64,000 nt of DNA from Roseovarius sp. (GTDB lineage Bacteria > Pseudomonadota > Alphaproteobacteria > Rhodobacterales > Rhodobacteraceae), in the NCBI GenBank assembly GCA_021775255.1, contig JAJFIA010000001.1:1-64000 (forward strand). The letters run 5' to 3'. The position numbers and the translations under genes were made by a program. A model generated the notes under the pieces. That model saw only the letters and a program-made list of their open reading frames with translations. It had not been told where the DNA came from and ran no database searches. Positions 8,472 to 15,022 of this stretch are shown here, in pieces (the first letter of the stretch is position 1; each line of letters begins with the position of its first letter).

Positions 8472-8785
8472 ATGATCCAAGTGATCAAGACATCGGCTGG
8501 GGTACGATTTTGCGCATCAACGCGCAGTTTGCCTTTGGCGCACTTATCTTCTTTTACGGTTGGCTCTGTTGGCAAGGTGTGTCGGTGAAGTGGTGGGGTT
8601 TGTGGATCATCGCAATGATTTGTCTTGTCGGCGGTGCCATTCAAATCATCCAAGCAGCCGTCGAAGCCTTCAAACTCATATTGCGACTGCGCCGCTGGAA
8701 GAAATACCAAAAAATGGGCGTCAAGCCTCGCGCTGATCACATGGCGCAGGACAGTGATTTTGAAGATGGCGGGCCTGCGTCATGA
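8468..8785 (+). CDS. Small protein with two membrane helices directly before the coupling ATPase
   Basis: 105 residues with two hydrophobic helices (AQFAFGALIFFYGWLCW and WWGLWIIAMICLVGGAIQII) and a basic cytosolic tail (LRLRRWKKYQKMGVKPR). This topology, two helices then a cytosolic basic stretch, equals the N-terminal anchor of VirD4/TraG proteins, which the following ATPase lacks. Overlaps both neighbours by 4 bases. It may serve as the detached anchor of the ATPase. That is inference. Confidence 0.55.
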   Translation: MNDPSDQDIGWGTILRINAQFAFGALIFFYGWLCWQGVSVKWWGLWIIAMICLVGGAIQIIQAAVEAFKLILRLRRWKKYQKMGVKPRADHMAQDSDFEDGGPAS

Positions 8786-10239
8786 GCGCGCCTTTTGGAT
8801 GGATATCCTTGAAGTGGTTCCGCAAATCCCGGCCCTTTGCAAAACCCAAACCAGCGGCGATTGATCCGAAAGGTCGTCGCCTGCTGGGGTTTACCAAAGA
8901 AACCCACCAACCGATCTGGGCACCGCCTGGGCATAGTTTGACGCTGGCGGCCAACGGTTCGGGAAAGACGACTAAGGCTTTGATGCCATGGCTTTTTTCC
9001 ATGCTGGCCTCAACAGATCGGCCCGCCATTCTAATTCTGGACAGCAAGGATTTTGAAATCGCGCGTCAGGTTGTGCCGATGCTCGAAGCGATGGGCATCC
9101 CCACAGCCCTCATTGATGACACCAACAACCTGCCGCCAGATATGTATGGGCGTGCCCGTCTTAATCCGATTGATTCCGTGGTCACGACATTTTTGACCAA
9201 GCCGGAAGATCAGGTCTTCGCCAATGAAGCGGTGACTCACACGCTGATCGAAGAGCCTGAGAAAGACGAACGCAACCGATACTGGCGGGCCTGGCCCCGC
9301 CTGCTGATTGAGTTCGCCATCTATGTGTTTTTAAAACGCAATCCGGCGCTGGCCACGCCGGGCGGTATCTGGATGTTGCTTTCAAGCCCAGAAAAGATGC
9401 GCCGCTTTGCCGAGATTGAGGCGGTTGAGGGCACCGGCATGCTGAAGGTGCTGGCCGAAAACATCAAGGGCATGATTGGTCACGAGCACTGGCCACAACA
9501 TCTGCAGGCTGCACAAGATTCCTTGCGTATTTATGGCATCGGCACCCCACTGCACGTTGCCGGTCACAACGCCACGACAACCCCCGGCCAACTGATCACG
9601 TCCAGGACAGTGACGTTCTTTGGCGGCTCACAGGCCAATATGGGGTCAATGGCATCCCAGTACGGGTTGGTGCTGACAAGCTATATTCGCGCCGCCTACC
9701 TGCACGGCAAACCGCTCTGGATCGGGGCCGATGAATTTACCAATGCCCCGGTTAAGAAATTGGTCGAAGCGCTGACGACGCTGAGGGCCTATCAGGTCGA
9801 GGTTTCCATGATCGCGCAAAGCCGATCAGAGATTGAGCGCAAGCTGGGCCGCAATGAAACCCGCACTATTGAAGACAACAGCATCACCAAGCAATGGTTT
9901 GGCTTCTCAAGCTTTGAAGAGGCGGAACGCGTCTCAAAGGCCATGGGCGAGCAACACGCGGTTGCGACGGCCATTGGTGGCAGCAACGACAATCTCAAAC
10001 TGCAGACCAATCTCAGCCTGATCAAACAGCGCTGGATGTCTGCTGCGGACCTCATGGCGATGCCGAGAAATAGGATGCTTCTCCACTTAAAAGGACTGGG
10101 ATTCTACGAGGGCGAAACGGTCAGCCAGCAGAACATCGACCCCTTTTGCCGCCTGATTGGACCGAACCAAATGGAAGGCGGCAGGCTCACCGCCGATCCC
10201 AAAATCACCTTCACCTTGCCCAAGGAGGCCCGTTCATGA
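8782..10239 (+). CDS. TraG/VirD4-type coupling ATPase without membrane anchor
   Basis: 485 residues. Coupling proteins bring the relaxed DNA strand to a type IV secretion channel using ATP. Seen: Walker A AANGSGKTT at residues 56-64, the conserved ILILDSKDFEIARQV near 83-97 (DPKGE-like position), Walker B LWIGADEF at 312-319 and a downstream MIAQSRSEIE. The usual two N-terminal transmembrane helices are absent, and the protein starts only about 55 residues before Walker A. The two small membrane proteins upstream are translationally coupled and may supply the anchor. No relaxase or channel genes are in the window. Confidence 0.85.
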   Translation: MSAPFGWISLKWFRKSRPFAKPKPAAIDPKGRRLLGFTKETHQPIWAPPGHSLTLAANGSGKTTKALMPWLFSMLASTDRPAILILDSKDFEIARQVVPMLEAMGIPTALIDDTNNLPPDMYGRARLNPIDSVVTTFLTKPEDQVFANEAVTHTLIEEPEKDERNRYWRAWPRLLIEFAIYVFLKRNPALATPGGIWMLLSSPEKMRRFAEIEAVEGTGMLKVLAENIKGMIGHEHWPQHLQAAQDSLRIYGIGTPLHVAGHNATTTPGQLITSRTVTFFGGSQANMGSMASQYGLVLTSYIRAAYLHGKPLWIGADEFTNAPVKKLVEALTTLRAYQVEVSMIAQSRSEIERKLGRNETRTIEDNSITKQWFGFSSFEEAERVSKAMGEQHAVATAIGGSNDNLKLQTNLSLIKQRWMSAADLMAMPRNRMLLHLKGLGFYEGETVSQQNIDPFCRLIGPNQMEGGRLTADPKITFTLPKEARS

Positions 10240-10490
10240 AAATCGCTGCCCTTTTGTTATGGCTGCTCCTGCCGTTTGCAGGCTACCTCACCTATCTCAC
10301 CTACGGCACGCCGCATATGATCTGGAGCTACAAGTTCCTCGACAATGGCGATCAATACAATCCGTACATCCAACGGCACTACACCTCTTGCACCTATGTA
10401 GGTTGGGGCTGGAATACTGTGACTGCGCCTGCCGTATCGGCACGTTGCCCCTGGGTCCGTCTGTTTAAAGGGGCGGCTCATGGCGTATAG
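10236..10490 (+). CDS. Small exported or membrane protein at the end of the coupling-ATPase cassette
   Basis: 84 residues. The ATG sits in the stop of the ATPase gene (ATGA), with AAGGAG before it. The N-terminal hydrophobic segment (IAALLLWLLLPFAGYLTYLTY) could be a signal anchor. The rest is short, with two cysteines (SCTYVG, ARCPW) and many aromatic residues, so probably exported. Last gene of the co-directional chain. Unknown family. Confidence 0.5.
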   Translation: MKIAALLLWLLLPFAGYLTYLTYGTPHMIWSYKFLDNGDQYNPYIQRHYTSCTYVGWGWNTVTAPAVSARCPWVRLFKGAAHGV

Positions 10491-10578: not shown

Positions 10579-10848
10579 TTAATGAAGCGAACTCAGCCCC
10601 TGATCCGCAATTGTCGCGTGGTAGCGGTGGCGCAATCCAAAGCGGCTGCGCAACCCGTCATAGGCGATATATTTGAGCCCTTTGAGAATGGTTGCCTGCG
10701 GTACTTTCCCGCCCGCAATCAGCCCGTCGCAGTGATCGCGGTCCGCGATACTGAAGATGCGATAGGGGGCCAAAGCCTCCCAAAAGGCAATGTAATCCAA
10801 AGGGTCCAGCCATTCGTCCACATCCGTCAAATCTTCAAAAACAACCAT
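10579..10848 (-). CDS. Copy 1 of a small acidic protein of a duplicated divergent module
   Basis: 89 residues beginning MVVFEDLTDVDEWLDPLDY. It is paralogous over its whole length to the protein at 11418-11684. Shared blocks are the acidic start, the (W)LDPLDYIAFW-type segment, the exact word DRDHCDGLI, GG, and an LKGL stretch near residue 60. No SD is seen. A -10-like TACACT ends exactly 6 bases before the ATG, so the message may be leaderless. It is divergent to the gene at 10910. Function unknown. Such small pairs can be toxin-antitoxin-like, but nothing in the sequence proves that. Confidence 0.6.
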   Translation of the reverse strand: MVVFEDLTDVDEWLDPLDYIAFWEALAPYRIFSIADRDHCDGLIAGGKVPQATILKGLKYIAYDGLRSRFGLRHRYHATIADQGLSSLH

Positions 10849-10854
10849 GGCACC

Positions 10855-10884
10855 AGTGTACCACACCTCTGTTTTGAAACGCAA
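10855..10884 (-). promoter_or_regulatory. Promoter of copy-1 small gene
   Basis: Read on the minus strand: TTGCGT (10879-10884), 18 bases, TACACT (10855-10860), 6 bases, ATG. The same elements at the same spacing precede the paralogue at 11684. Confidence 0.5.
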
Positions 10885-10909
10885 TTTTGGCCGCAAAGGA
10901 GTCCACAGG

Positions 10910-11389
10910 ATGGAAAATGACCTTGAGCTGGGCGTCGCCACCATGTTCCGGGATGCCATGATGCAAAGCATTGTACCGGAATTGCGGACGCAAGCCGATT
11001 GGGATCGCTTCAATGAAATCAAGGATGCCGCAAAACAGAGCGAACACGACGAAGTTGAAAGCTTCAAGCAGGACAAAACACAGCGCCTGACGGATGCCCG
11101 TAAAGAGCTGATCGACAAGGCCGGATCGCTCACCTTTGAGCATCCCACGCCCTTTGGCACCGACAAGTTCGACAAATCCGCCAATGACAGAGCGGCCCAT
11201 ATCATGGTCGAAAATGATCATCAGGCCCGCCTACTCGGGATCAAGGCCGAGGAAACCGACGGTTTCGACGGTTTGAAACAGGACATCCATGCCCGCGAAG
11301 GCAAACGCGACCACGCGCGGGACGCCTTTGCCCGCACCACGGATCGGCGCAGCAGTGAAGACCGCCCGTTGCCGAGCCGTGATCGGTAG
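10910..11389 (+). CDS. Copy 1 of the helical partner protein of the duplicated module
   Basis: 159 residues, highly charged and predicted almost all helical. AAAGGAG precedes the ATG. It shares a layout with the protein at 11747: a LxxxADWxxxxEI segment early (QADWDRFNEIK against LADWEKLQEIN), then a basic amphipathic helix, then an ExDHxxR segment (VENDHQARLLG against VETDHHRRTVV) and a basic Arg/Asp tail. It is divergent to the 89-residue gene, with 61 bases between the two starts. No known family recognised. Confidence 0.55.
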   Translation: MENDLELGVATMFRDAMMQSIVPELRTQADWDRFNEIKDAAKQSEHDEVESFKQDKTQRLTDARKELIDKAGSLTFEHPTPFGTDKFDKSANDRAAHIMVENDHQARLLGIKAEETDGFDGLKQDIHAREGKRDHARDAFARTTDRRSSEDRPLPSRDR

Positions 11390-11417
11390 GCCCCCAAAGG
11401 TTTTGAAAGGAAACGGA

Positions 11418-11684
11418 TCAGTGAATGGATGTCAGATATTTGGCCACAGTTGGTTCATGGATGCGGTCGTTCAGATTGAACGCAGCCCGCAACTCCATCA
11501 CCGCCAGCCCTTTAAGCACGCTCAGGATCAGGTCCGCGCCAACTTGCCCGCCTCCAATCAGCCCGTCGCAGTGATCGCGATCCTGCAAGGTCAGACAATA
11601 CGGCGCAACCGCGTCCCAAAATGCGACGTAATCCAAAGGCTCCAGCCACTCTTCAACATCCTGAATATCTTCAAAAATAACCAT
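11418..11684 (-). CDS. Copy 2 of a small acidic protein of a duplicated divergent module
   Basis: 88 residues beginning MVIFEDIQDVEEWLEPLDYV and containing DRDHCDGLIGGGQ. It is paralogous to the protein at 10579-10848, with strong similarity in the first half and weaker in the second. No SD; TATACT ends 6 bases before the ATG. It ends 28 bases from the stop of the copy-1 partner gene, so the two modules are arranged head to tail. Confidence 0.6.
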   Translation of the reverse strand: MVIFEDIQDVEEWLEPLDYVAFWDAVAPYCLTLQDRDHCDGLIGGGQVGADLILSVLKGLAVMELRAAFNLNDRIHEPTVAKYLTSIH

Positions 11685-11690
11685 ACCAAG

Positions 11691-11720
11691 AGTATATCAA
11701 ACCGCCGTAATCAAATGCAA
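11691..11720 (-). promoter_or_regulatory. Promoter of copy-2 small gene
   Basis: Read on the minus strand: TTGCAT (11715-11720), 18 bases, TATACT (11691-11696), 6 bases, ATG. Spacing is identical to copy 1, which supports a real, possibly leaderless, promoter. Confidence 0.55.
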
Positions 11721-11746
11721 ATTTGCGCAGCCCAAAGGATCATCCC

Positions 11747-12232
11747 ATGAGTTTTGAACCCACCGATGATCTGCAGAAAACCTTCCGCACCATGCAGGCT
11801 GAAGTCGATGTCGAATACTGGCAAAAAGAGGCGCGCAGTCTCACGCGTCTGGCGGATTGGGAAAAGCTGCAGGAGATCAATAATCGTTTTACCCGCGAGA
11901 TCAAAACCCAGGCCCGCAAATATCACCGCGACCATGCGCGCCGCGTGGATATGGCCTGCAAGCATATCGCCCACTTGCGGGGCGAGGATTTTGACAAGCT
12001 GAAACGCAGGACCGATCCGCGCTCAAAACAGCTGACCAAAGCCATTCTCAAAGCCGCTGGCGTTGATGTCGAAACCGATCATCACCGCCGAACCGTGGTG
12101 CTGCGCGAACATCAGGCCAAAGAACTACGCGAGTTGATCGAAACCGCCCGTGCCCGCGATGCCGGGCCGGGCGCGCCAAAGCTCCTCACAGACGGGAGAA
12201 AGGGCCCTGATCGATGGGTTCGGGGCCGCTAG
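11747..12232 (+). CDS. Copy 2 of the helical partner protein of the duplicated module
   Basis: 161 residues, helical, very rich in Arg, Lys, Glu and Asp. The ATG at 11747 is preceded by AAAGGA. Its relation to the 10910 protein is weaker than that of the minus-strand partners, but the order of motifs is the same (LADWEKLQEIN, basic helix, VETDHHRR, basic tail). The intergenic region on the upstream side also resembles copy 1 (GCAAATTTG against GCAATTTTG, then AAAGGA). Function unknown; basic charge would suit nucleic-acid binding. Confidence 0.55.
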   Translation: MSFEPTDDLQKTFRTMQAEVDVEYWQKEARSLTRLADWEKLQEINNRFTREIKTQARKYHRDHARRVDMACKHIAHLRGEDFDKLKRRTDPRSKQLTKAILKAAGVDVETDHHRRTVVLREHQAKELRELIETARARDAGPGAPKLLTDGRKGPDRWVRGR

Positions 12233-12322: not shown

Positions 12323-12934
12323 ATGACCACTGGATATGTAGACCCAAAACGCCTTGAGGCCCAGGGCAGCTTCACCGGGAAAACCCTCACAGCAGGCCAA
12401 TTTGATGAGGCCTGGGCCGTTGCAGGCGTAATGGAACGCGAAATCCGTAAATCCGGCTCGTTCCGCGAAAAGCTCACCGACTATTCCCACGCCTTTGCGC
12501 GCTCGGAGAAATTCGACCAGATGAAAGGCGAGACCATCATCCGGGATATCTTCACCGCCCGTTATGGTGAGACGATGAACCAGATGCGCGAAGGGTTGAA
12601 AGCACGGGAAACCAATTTGCAAGACATTGCTCAGGATCAAGCACTGCATCACGCCAAATCTATTGAGGGTATGATCAAGGACGGGGCAACCATGCCGTTC
12701 TACCGCGCCTATGATCACGCCGCCGTTCAGATGGCTGAGCAACATAACATCACCGAGATTGGAGCCAAAACGCTGATGAAGGATGCTTTTGCGCGCACTG
12801 AAGGCCGCGAGCTTTATGATGCCAGCAAAGAGCTGGAAAAGCAGTTCCACGAGCCCAAACGGGACGCCGCGCGTGCCGAACGGCAGGCCACGCGTTCTCA
12901 AAAACCGGCACGTGCGCCAGAACGGCATATGTAA
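12323..12934 (+). CDS. Charged helical protein, unknown function
   Basis: 203 residues, with SD AAAGGAAAG before the ATG. Almost entirely helical and polar, with a C-terminal Lys/Arg/Ala-rich tail (AARAERQATRSQKPAR). A DAFART segment followed by basic residues recalls the end of the 10910 protein, so it may be a distant third member of that group, but it has no minus-strand partner. No family recognised. Confidence 0.5.
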   Translation: MTTGYVDPKRLEAQGSFTGKTLTAGQFDEAWAVAGVMEREIRKSGSFREKLTDYSHAFARSEKFDQMKGETIIRDIFTARYGETMNQMREGLKARETNLQDIAQDQALHHAKSIEGMIKDGATMPFYRAYDHAAVQMAEQHNITEIGAKTLMKDAFARTEGRELYDASKELEKQFHEPKRDAARAERQATRSQKPARAPERHM

Positions 12935-12980: not shown

Positions 12981-12995
12981 GTTCTCTTTTTGTTC
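12981..12995 (+). promoter_or_regulatory. LexA box GTTC-N7-GTTC upstream of the recombinase operon
   Basis: GTTC (12981-12984), seven bases, GTTC (12992-12995). This is an exact match to the direct-repeat LexA operator known from Rhodobacter and other alphaproteobacteria. It lies 49 bases before the ATG of the first gene of the recombinase operon. It implies SOS induction of recombinase expression. Confidence 0.6.
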
Positions 12996-13023
12996 GCACA
13001 TAGCGAACACCAAAATGGAGAAC
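12992..13023. promoter_or_regulatory. Inverted repeat overlapping the LexA box
   Basis: GTTCGC-ACATA-GCGAAC (12992-13008) is a perfect 6-bp-arm palindrome. An outer pair, GTTCTC (12981) and GAGAAC (13018-13023), encloses it. This could be a second operator, for instance for an element-encoded repressor. Confidence 0.45.
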
Positions 13024-13043: not shown

Positions 13044-13409
13044 ATGACAGAGGATACAACGAGCAAACCAAACGGGGTAAACGGTTTGGAGGCAACCGGC
13101 CCGCCAAGCCTGACACCTGATTTGGAGCTTTTTAGCAAACAGCTGGACGATTCCGATCTGACGGATGCCCAGAAACGCGAATTTATCGAAGTTCTCTGGT
13201 CCCTCGTTGTCAGTTTTGTCGATCTCGGGCTCGGCATCCATCCCTTACAGTTGGTCATGGCAAATTCCTGTGAACAACAGGCTGAGATTACCAGGTTTAT
13301 CGCCGCAGAAACGCCGCATGTGATAAACTCTTCAGATTGTTCCAACACAGAATTTAACGCGGCTGCTGACGGGTATCAGGCACTCACGCAGGAAAGGGAT
13401 TCAAAATGA
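13044..13409 (+). CDS. Small acidic protein coupled to the serine recombinase (possible directionality factor)
   Basis: 121 residues, acidic, with one helix-rich hydrophobic stretch (REFIEVLWSLVVSFVDLGLGIHPLQLV). Its stop overlaps the recombinase ATG (ATGA at 13406), so both are made from one message. The SD is GGAGACAAG. Small genes in this position are often recombination directionality factors or regulators, but the sequence has no diagnostic motif and I do not recognise a family. Confidence 0.55.
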   Translation: MTEDTTSKPNGVNGLEATGPPSLTPDLELFSKQLDDSDLTDAQKREFIEVLWSLVVSFVDLGLGIHPLQLVMANSCEQQAEITRFIAAETPHVINSSDCSNTEFNAAADGYQALTQERDSK

Positions 13410-15022
13410 CAGAACCGATGAAAGCCGTGATCTACTGCCGCGTCTCCTCAAAGTCGCAAGAAAATGAGGGGCATGGCTTAGAGAGCCAAGAAACCCGCTG
13501 CCGTGAATACGCCAAATCCAAGGGCTATCTGGTCGAGGCCGCGTTCCCCGACACGATCACCGGCGGCGGTGACTTTATGAAACGCCCCGGCATGGTGGCG
13601 CTTCTCAGCTATCTCGATGCCCTCCCCAATGAGAATTACGTCGTCATTTTCGACGATCTCAAACGCTTTGCCCGAGATACCCGCTTCCACCTTGATCTCC
13701 GCGATGCGTTTCGCTCGCGCGGCGCAATGATTGAATGCCTGAACTTCGCCTTTGAAGACACGCCAGAAGGTGAGTTTATCGAGACCATCATGGCCGCCCA
13801 AGGCGCGCTGGAACGTAAGCAGAATGGGCGGCAAGTGGCGCAGAAAATGAAGGCGCGCATGCAGAGCGGCTATTGGGTGCATGCCGCTCCGGTGGGTTAT
13901 AAATATGAAACCGTGAAAGGGCGCGGTAAGATGCTGTTCCCGCACCCAACGCTTGCCAACACGGTCCGCGAGGCCTTTGACGGCTTTGCCTCTGGCCGCT
14001 TTGGCAGTCAGGCTGAGGTGCGGCGTTCTTTTGAGCTGAACCCCGACTTTCCGCGCAACAGACAAGGCCAGATCACCAACCAGCGGGTTGCTGATGTGCT
14101 AAACAATCCACTTTATACCGGTCATATCTGCAGTGAAACCTATGGGATCGACTGGCAAAAAGGTCAGCACGACCCCCTGATCACCATTGATCTGTTTGAC
14201 AAGGTCCGCGACCGTCTCAACGGTTCTGCGAAAGTCCGTGTCCGCAAGAATATCGGCAACGACTTCGCCCTGCGTGGATTTGTGACCTGCGGCGACTGCG
14301 ACACACCCCTGCGCAGCTCATGGTCCAAAGGCCGTGACCGCAGCTACGCCTACTACCTCTGCCAAGCGCAGAGCTGCGCCAGCTATGGCAAGTCGATTCC
14401 TCGGGACAAGTTAGAAGGCGACATCGGCGCGCTGATCAAAACCCTGCAACCCAGTGCGACTCTCTTTGGGCTCGTAAAGGTCATGTTCCGCGAGGCCTGG
14501 ACCCAGCGTCTGGCACAGGCCGAAGAGATCACCAAATCTGCCAAGCAACAAATCAAGAGCGTTGAAAAACAGGTGGATGCGTTGTTGGGAAGGTTAATGG
14601 AGGCCACCAATCCAACCGTAATCACCGCCTATGAGGGGAAACTCAGCGATCTGGAGCGCAGTAAAACCAAGCTACAAGACCAATTGGCGCAGCACAGCGC
14701 ACCAAAATCAGGCACATTCGGAGAAAAACTAGAACCAGCCCTGCAATTCCTCGCAAACCCTTGGAAACTATGGGAAAGCGGGCAGATCACCCTGCAACGT
14801 ATGGTGCTGAAACTGGCCTTCACCGACCGCATCGCATACCACCGAAATGAGGGTGCTAGAACCGCCAAAATAGCCTTACCATTCAAGGCCTTAGATGGTG
14901 TTTTATATAGGGAAAGTGAAAATGGTGCGGTCGAGAAGACTCGAACTTCCACGGGTGTTACCCCACAGCGACCTCAACGCTGCGCGTCTACCATTCCGCC
15001 ACGACCGCACGTGATCAGGTAG
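13406..15022 (+). CDS. Large serine recombinase (site-specific integrase) of the island
   Basis: 538 residues. N-terminal resolvase domain (1-150) with the nucleophile serine in YCRVSSKSQ and the DDLKRFARD motif. Recombinase domain (about 165-290), then a zinc ribbon (VTCGDCDTPLRSS ... CQAQSCASYG) and a coiled coil (about 365-430). The last 30 codons run antisense through tRNA-Leu(GAG) into flanking host DNA, so the C-terminus seen here exists only in the integrated state. It catalyses integration at, and excision from, the tRNA 3' end, with directionality probably set by an accessory protein. SOS control is suggested by the upstream LexA box. Confidence 0.92.
   Translation: MTEPMKAVIYCRVSSKSQENEGHGLESQETRCREYAKSKGYLVEAAFPDTITGGGDFMKRPGMVALLSYLDALPNENYVVIFDDLKRFARDTRFHLDLRDAFRSRGAMIECLNFAFEDTPEGEFIETIMAAQGALERKQNGRQVAQKMKARMQSGYWVHAAPVGYKYETVKGRGKMLFPHPTLANTVREAFDGFASGRFGSQAEVRRSFELNPDFPRNRQGQITNQRVADVLNNPLYTGHICSETYGIDWQKGQHDPLITIDLFDKVRDRLNGSAKVRVRKNIGNDFALRGFVTCGDCDTPLRSSWSKGRDRSYAYYLCQAQSCASYGKSIPRDKLEGDIGALIKTLQPSATLFGLVKVMFREAWTQRLAQAEEITKSAKQQIKSVEKQVDALLGRLMEATNPTVITAYEGKLSDLERSKTKLQDQLAQHSAPKSGTFGEKLEPALQFLANPWKLWESGQITLQRMVLKLAFTDRIAYHRNEGARTAKIALPFKALDGVLYRESENGAVEKTRTSTGVTPQRPQRCASTIPPRPHVIR
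14923..15008 (-). tRNA. tRNA-Leu(GAG), right attachment region of the island
   Basis: 86-base tRNA including encoded CCA (14923-14925). Acceptor arms are GCGGTCG/CGACCGC, the anticodon stem is CAGCG/CGCTG around the loop TTGAGGT (anticodon GAG), and a class II variable arm is present. Its 3' end faces the recombinase gene, which overlaps it completely on the other strand. The gene is intact after integration, so the element supplies or preserves its 3' end. Confidence 0.93.

Follow-up and report, generated by a model that had tools for sequence, protein, structure and literature searches.

A divergent gene pair at a fixed site of likely mobilizable elements in Alphaproteobacteria and its possible role in controlling the transfer region

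What do two small genes that start away from each other next to a coupling-protein gene contribute to a mobile element, and why are they present twice in the Roseovarius sp. contig studied here? The window, i.e. the whole analysed stretch of 64,000 nucleotides, contains at positions 10579-12232 two head-to-tail modules, A1/B1 and A2/B2. Each consists of a minus-strand gene, A1 (10579..10848, 89 aa) or A2 (11418..11684, 88 aa), and a plus-strand gene, B1 (10910..11389, 159 aa) or B2 (11747..12232, 161 aa). The duplicated divergent arrangement and the positions of the open reading frames (ORFs) were found as an earlier note had described them, and its placement of the duplicated pair near a recombinase on a likely mobile element was right as well. 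At the DNA level the double module contains repeats, 128 nt (75%) and 42 nt (90%) in length, with a spacing of 836-839 bp. Each of the 15 other elements examined has a single module, and the doubling in the window is unusual. With B taken at its nearest start codon, the distance between the start codons of A and B is 50-76 bp for 14 of the 16 modules and 119-122 bp for the remaining two. A and B are a real, selected pair of undescribed proteins occupying a fixed site in a family of mobilizable elements; their function is what we infer from this setting.

Aligned from end to end, the A1 and A2 proteins have 53% identity (BLASTP 1e-33), with MVxFED and an exact DRDHCDGLI in common, and are paralogues as had been proposed. 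For B1 and B2 the pairwise BLASTP match was marginal (E 0.008); in a profile-profile comparison they aligned over 125 columns with 96.7% probability (E 3.5e-10), and at this profile level they are remote paralogues, the similarity that the earlier note had required. The control comparison of either B profile with C (12323..12934, plus strand, 203 aa), the 3' neighbour of the module, gave only 0.2% and 1.1%, and the suggestion that this third protein may be related to B was therefore dropped. The proposed pairing of an acidic with a basic partner also did not survive. A1 and A2 are both acidic, B2 has a pI of 10.0 and a charge of +10, and six other computed B proteins range from -14 to +2; since B1 is itself acidic (pI 5.3, charge -8), acidic-basic pairing is not a rule, and B proteins are not generally basic. 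For A, dN was 0.05-0.48 and dS 0.69-4.2 in 45 sequence pairs (four of them saturated), and for B, dN was 0.20-0.96 and dS 1.3-5.7 in seven pairs. As dN is well below dS for both, A and B are coding and under purifying selection.

Structure prediction for A2 (67 sequences) yielded five helices (pLDDT 88, pTM 0.72), and A1 is predicted via this paralogue to be all-helical; no match to the A2 model was found among solved structures (PDB chains). B1 (58 sequences) is predicted to be a three-helix hairpin protein with helices at 2-24, 28-73 and 89-144 (pLDDT 82, pTM 0.64), for which PDB chains gave generic helical matches only. Searches against Pfam, NCBIfam, PADLOC and PHROGs returned nothing above the cut-offs for A or B, and thus no toxin or antitoxin family; new families are possible, and the view that no named family is evident was borne out. 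The relaxosome protein MobC/NikA was considered as an identity for A or B and rejected, as there was no profile match and the element has a separate MobC-like gene. A and B are undescribed proteins with no convincing family or fold match.

The modules lie in a row of genes that recurs elsewhere. Ahead of the first module the window encodes a coupling protein with a TraG-D_C domain (T4CP, 8782..10239, plus strand), a likely motor of DNA transfer and the 5' neighbour of the module, and X (10236..10490, plus strand, 84 aa), which is convergent with A1. Downstream, C is followed by D (13044..13409, plus strand, 121 aa, acidic) and by a large serine recombinase gene (13406..15022, plus strand), whose start is overlapped by D. 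The order T4CP-X-A(opposite strand)/B-C-D-large serine recombinase was found in the window and in 15 other elements (L001-L005, L019, L020, L022-L028 and L054), two of all 16 being damaged. L001 lacks C, retains an X fragment and has lost the T4CP region, and L023 carries another recombinase in place of T4CP. The sequences of L002 and L004 stop inside T4CP, and L020 has its T4CP split into three fragments. Often the row begins with genes V, Z and Y, ahead of T4CP. Among their cargo are large AAA-ATPase-like proteins with ankyrin repeats (L022 4430-8182 and L019 5464-8709). Upstream of T4CP, L005 (8258-8947) and L026 (11180-11869) encode a secreted-looking protein without a Pfam match, in which a DVSGS/DISGS stretch resembles, by eye, a von Willebrand A metal site. 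At 217-2504 of the window, near the contig end where the element breaks off, two overlapping ORFs (510 and 292 aa) are presumably an IS21-type transposase and its helper.

The element has its own recombinase, with Resolvase, Recombinase and Zn_ribbon_recom domains above the Pfam cut-off. A tRNA-Leu(gag) gene (14923..15008, minus strand) lies within the 3' end of its ORF in the window, and such an overlap was found in 13 of the 15 other recombinase-bearing loci scanned, a count that takes in two C-D-recombinase sets without A/B, in genomes G326 and G073. The exceptions are L001, with no tRNA gene, and L023, where the tRNA belongs to the second recombinase. The overlapping tRNA genes vary (Leu gag, caa, tag and cag; Thr tgt; Arg ccg and acg; Ser cga), and with the 3' end of the recombinase gene inside a tRNA gene, the C-terminus of the protein would vary with the insertion site. 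The complete genome G003 has two of the elements, L026 and L027, one at a tRNA-Arg and the other at a tRNA-Ser gene, with about 300 kb between them. The search for att sites gave no exact repeats except one 11-bp match.

The elements also bring their own relaxase. In five of them a MobC/NikA-like gene and a relaxase gene were found 20-38 kb from A, at the end opposite the recombinase. The relaxases of G003, G151, G302 and G295 have about 890-940 aa, and that of the second G003 element, at a distance of about 25 kb, has 430 aa. In the genome of the window, a MobC-like gene and a 927-aa relaxase with a MobA/VirD2-like nuclease domain (PF03432) and a TraA-like helicase part are located on a separate contig (C17, L050 10698-13927), which is probably the missing left part of the window's element; the relaxase of G250, also on a separate contig, would likewise belong to its element. 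VirB4 (PF03135), the sole mating-pair marker searched, gave no match in 6 of the 11 carrier genomes, and in the other five it lies on another contig (four) or about 560 kb away (one); judged by this marker alone, no complete mating-pair apparatus accompanies the elements. None of the 1720 plasmid records matching the relaxase covered 80% of it, and T4CP had no plasmid match at 1e-10. Since a recombinase, a relaxase, a MobC-like gene and an own T4CP are present with no VirB4 nearby, the host fits a non-canonical integrative mobilizable element (IME), as far as its genes alone define it.

In the searches made, one orphan A was the only part of the pair seen outside these elements. Database searches with A1 found 77 relatives; the search with B2 gave 15 rows (B2 included) and that with the combined B profile 61 (B1 and B2 included). 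A scan of genome contigs gave five loci, including ones from Tateyamaria sp., three Rhodobacteraceae or Rhodobacterales MAGs and Agrobacterium vitis. The A, B and C profiles were further searched across 394 genomes of the family, so that carriers were located through A, B or C only. A was found at 12 places in 10 genomes and C in 13 genomes; two weak N-terminal C matches (21-22 bits) were removed. B had matched 10 genomes before one match (22 bits inside a 997-aa frame) was discarded, which left 11 places in nine genomes, each beside an A. The idea of a linked pair had been open to refutation by one member being widespread without the other, and the only departure in the 394 genomes was one orphan A in G326 (L021 13982-14248), 72% identical to A2, with an intact frame and, 6 nt ahead of the ATG, a TATGAT box. 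Its surroundings contain no B remnant and no T4CP; the C-D-recombinase set of this genome, which lacks T4CP and A/B, is 31 kb distant from it. In G073, the C of such a set lacks its start and adjoins a frame that looks by eye like a transposase, and no A/B or T4CP was found in the 20 kb examined. A class-wide sample of 372 genomes gave the window's genome and G528 from another family, in which the gene order is fully kept and the recombinase overlaps a tRNA-Arg(ccg) gene. Among 72,556 plasmids and 50,697 phages nothing matched A1, and a search of viral contigs with the A profile was likewise negative.

The two pairs in the window differ in their affinity to the single pairs of other elements. 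A1 and B1 are 90% and 70% identical to the pair of L001 and 81% and 68% identical to that of L002; the corresponding values for A2 and B2 are 53% and 15% (L001) and 51% and 19% (L002). By these identities, the second pair is of another lineage, and its distance from the L001 and L002 pairs makes it most likely that the element gained, or alone kept, an extra pair. A further element with both B types is hinted at by P0097 (B1-type) and P0121 (B2-type), for which the same longest contig of 19,412 bases is named.

The divergence of A and B was compared with that of their neighbours in 13 loci (L001, L023, the second module of the window and G528 were left out). Mean pairwise identity was 0.44 for A, 0.30 for B, 0.50 for C, 0.50 for T4CP, 0.47 for X and 0.58 for the recombinase, which makes B the least conserved of the six genes. 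The A and B distances correlated with r 0.72, and after removal of the T4CP, X, C and recombinase distances a partial r of 0.55 (p 0.0002) was retained. The other partial correlations were 0.46 for B-X, 0.38 for A-X, 0.33 for A-recombinase, 0.26 for B-C and -0.09 for A-C. The A-B link is thus the strongest, though not the only one, among the genes compared. Such matched divergence agrees with direct contact between A and B and is no proof of it; B may also have partners other than A, given its co-variation with X.

Upstream of A, an ATTTGC/AATTGC-type box was computed at -37/-38 for 14 of the 16 modules and at -41 for the other two, and a -10-like hexamer was read by eye 6 nt before the ATG, or 9 nt in the -41 group; G528 shows the -41 spacing (counted by eye). 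For A1 the putative promoter (10849..10886, minus strand) has AATTGC at -38 and TACACT as -10-like hexamer, and for A2 (11685..11722, minus strand) these are ATTTGC at -38 and TATACT. The box is retained even where A proteins drop to 30% identity to A1. Its pattern was picked after the sequences had been viewed, and a promoter scan did not report the A sites. With box and hexamer so close to the ATG, a leaderless or nearly leaderless A transcript is predicted. At the other end of A, the distance between its stop codon and that of X is -7 to +8 bp in 13 of the 14 loci that have X, and -4 bp in G528; only the window departs from this, with an X-A1 distance of 88 bp. No terminator-like site was found between X and the end of B, in the direction from T4CP to the recombinase, in any of the five loci scanned, and A is thus an opposite-strand gene within a same-strand row, as in a non-contiguous operon. 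Further downstream, GTTCN7GTTC, given as the Caulobacter LexA box in the accessible part of PMC12700426, lies at 12981..12995 (plus strand) ahead of D and the recombinase. This motif was found in the C-D gap of 12 of the 16 elements (it is absent from L020, L024, L026 and G528), with 10 further matches outside the C-D gaps of 15 loci, about 281 kb in all. In the window one match compares with 1.17 expected by chance, so the recurrence at one place, and not the lone match, is the evidence, and excision is probably tied to DNA damage through this LexA-type box. A perfect 7-5-7 inverted repeat, TGTTCGCACATAGCGAACA, at 12991-13009 overlaps the second half of the box.

Taken together, these features suggest, with a probability of about 0.4, that A and B form an on/off control of the transfer region, in which A restrains B and B is made by read-through of the T4CP transcript across A. 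In the resting element, A would be expressed from its own nearly leaderless promoter, facing the T4CP and X genes. Transcription of T4CP and X would then run antisense through A into B and C, as in a non-contiguous operon, lowering A and supplying B; once A drops, B would be released and, as a helical hairpin protein, might assist T4CP or the relaxosome. The window's second pair would then be an additional copy that has diverged and differs in specificity. The matching place in 16 elements, the fixed distance of the A box, the contact of the X and A stops, the lack of a terminator-like site from X to the end of B in the five loci scanned, the joint divergence of A with B as opposed to C, the 11 of 11 B genes adjoining an A and purifying selection speak for this control, while the resting-state role of A, its lowering by read-through and its blocking of B are parts that we infer. 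Against it stand the X-A1 gap of the window, which leaves room for a terminator, though none was seen; the reading of the -10 boxes by eye, the post hoc choice of the box pattern and the silence of the promoter scan; the co-variation of B with X; the orphan A of G326 without B and T4CP; and the retention of A/B in L001 and L023 despite a lost or replaced T4CP region.

The earlier note had thought of a maintenance, toxin-antitoxin or DNA-processing module. Since the pair, the orphan A apart, was seen only in one kind of element and there always at one site, it is more likely to be a dedicated part of the transfer region than an independent maintenance or toxin-antitoxin module; A and B could still follow a logic like that of toxin and antitoxin. 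B would then harm the cell or a recipient, the constitutive A would be its antidote, and the second pair would add addiction or immunity against rival elements. That B was never found without A, that one A is an intact orphan, and that the fast-diverging B changes jointly with A are as expected from this reading, but no toxin or antitoxin family was matched, the predicted B fold is a hairpin with generic matches, and the genes are divergent and not co-operonic, and we regard it as unlikely. Equally unlikely is that B, and perhaps C, is sent through T4CP or is a relaxosome part with A as its small acidic chaperone, by analogy with VirE1 and VirE2. The proximity of T4CP, the small, acidic, helical A and the A-B co-divergence would agree with it, as would the net positive last 20 residues in 57 of 58 B sequences and in 7 of 7 relaxases; this tail test is weak, however, as positive tails also occur in 54 of 67 A sequences and, in the window, in the recombinase, X and x_8097, and a chaperone would be expected to share an operon with its client.

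Two further readings are much less probable. The pair could be cargo, for instance for defence or anti-restriction, sitting here by chance; its lack of a recognised family and the cargo of other elements, such as the ankyrin-repeat ATPases, leave some room for this, but such cargo differs among elements, A/B stands at the matching place in all 16, and PADLOC matched neither protein. Least probable is that A or B serves the serine recombinase as its directionality factor. The recombinase is nearby, and the relevant part of a 2017 review (PMC5704250) has none identified or proposed for serine-integrase IMEs, but C-D-recombinase sets without A/B occur in G326 and G073, and D is the better candidate for such a factor, because its gene immediately precedes that of the recombinase and extends over the recombinase start codon.

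If the on/off control by A and B were true, little-noticed alphaproteobacterial mobilizable elements would have a compact built-in switch, with one strand for the resting state and the other for the transfer state, beside a LexA-type box that would link the recombinase to DNA damage. Two unnamed protein families would gain a role, the retention of an opposite-strand gene in the transfer region would be explained, and how elements choose between staying and moving would become testable. A bolder form, which we hold to be doubtful, is a new conjugation checkpoint: a leaderless antagonist in a non-contiguous transfer operon would be silenced by antisense read-through, the fast-evolving B would license transfer, and elements would stack differently typed pairs to escape or block rivals.

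Compared with known systems, the pair resembles toxin-antitoxin modules in that two small genes lie side by side on a mobile element and one of them also occurs as an orphan, and differs from them by its divergent genes, the lack of a family match and its tie to one place in one element family. Its layout agrees with the non-contiguous operon, or excludon, as described in the accessible part of PMC7154746, in the opposite-strand gene within a same-strand row and in the absence of a terminator-like site from the five loci; unlike what that part describes, the opposite gene co-diverges with the gene downstream of it. The relaxase is like the Ti-type TraA relaxases of rhizobial plasmids in its helicase half (35.7-46.1% identity among the six matches listed) and unlike them in its N-terminal nuclease, which matches PF03432. 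With the category of IMEs that have their own relaxase and some T4SS proteins, as set out in the relevant part of PMC5704250, the host shares the integrase-type recombinase, the MobC-like protein, the relaxase, the coupling protein and the lack of a nearby VirB4; from the elements covered there it is set apart by the fixed A/B pair, the LexA-type box before the recombinase and the tRNA gene at the recombinase end.
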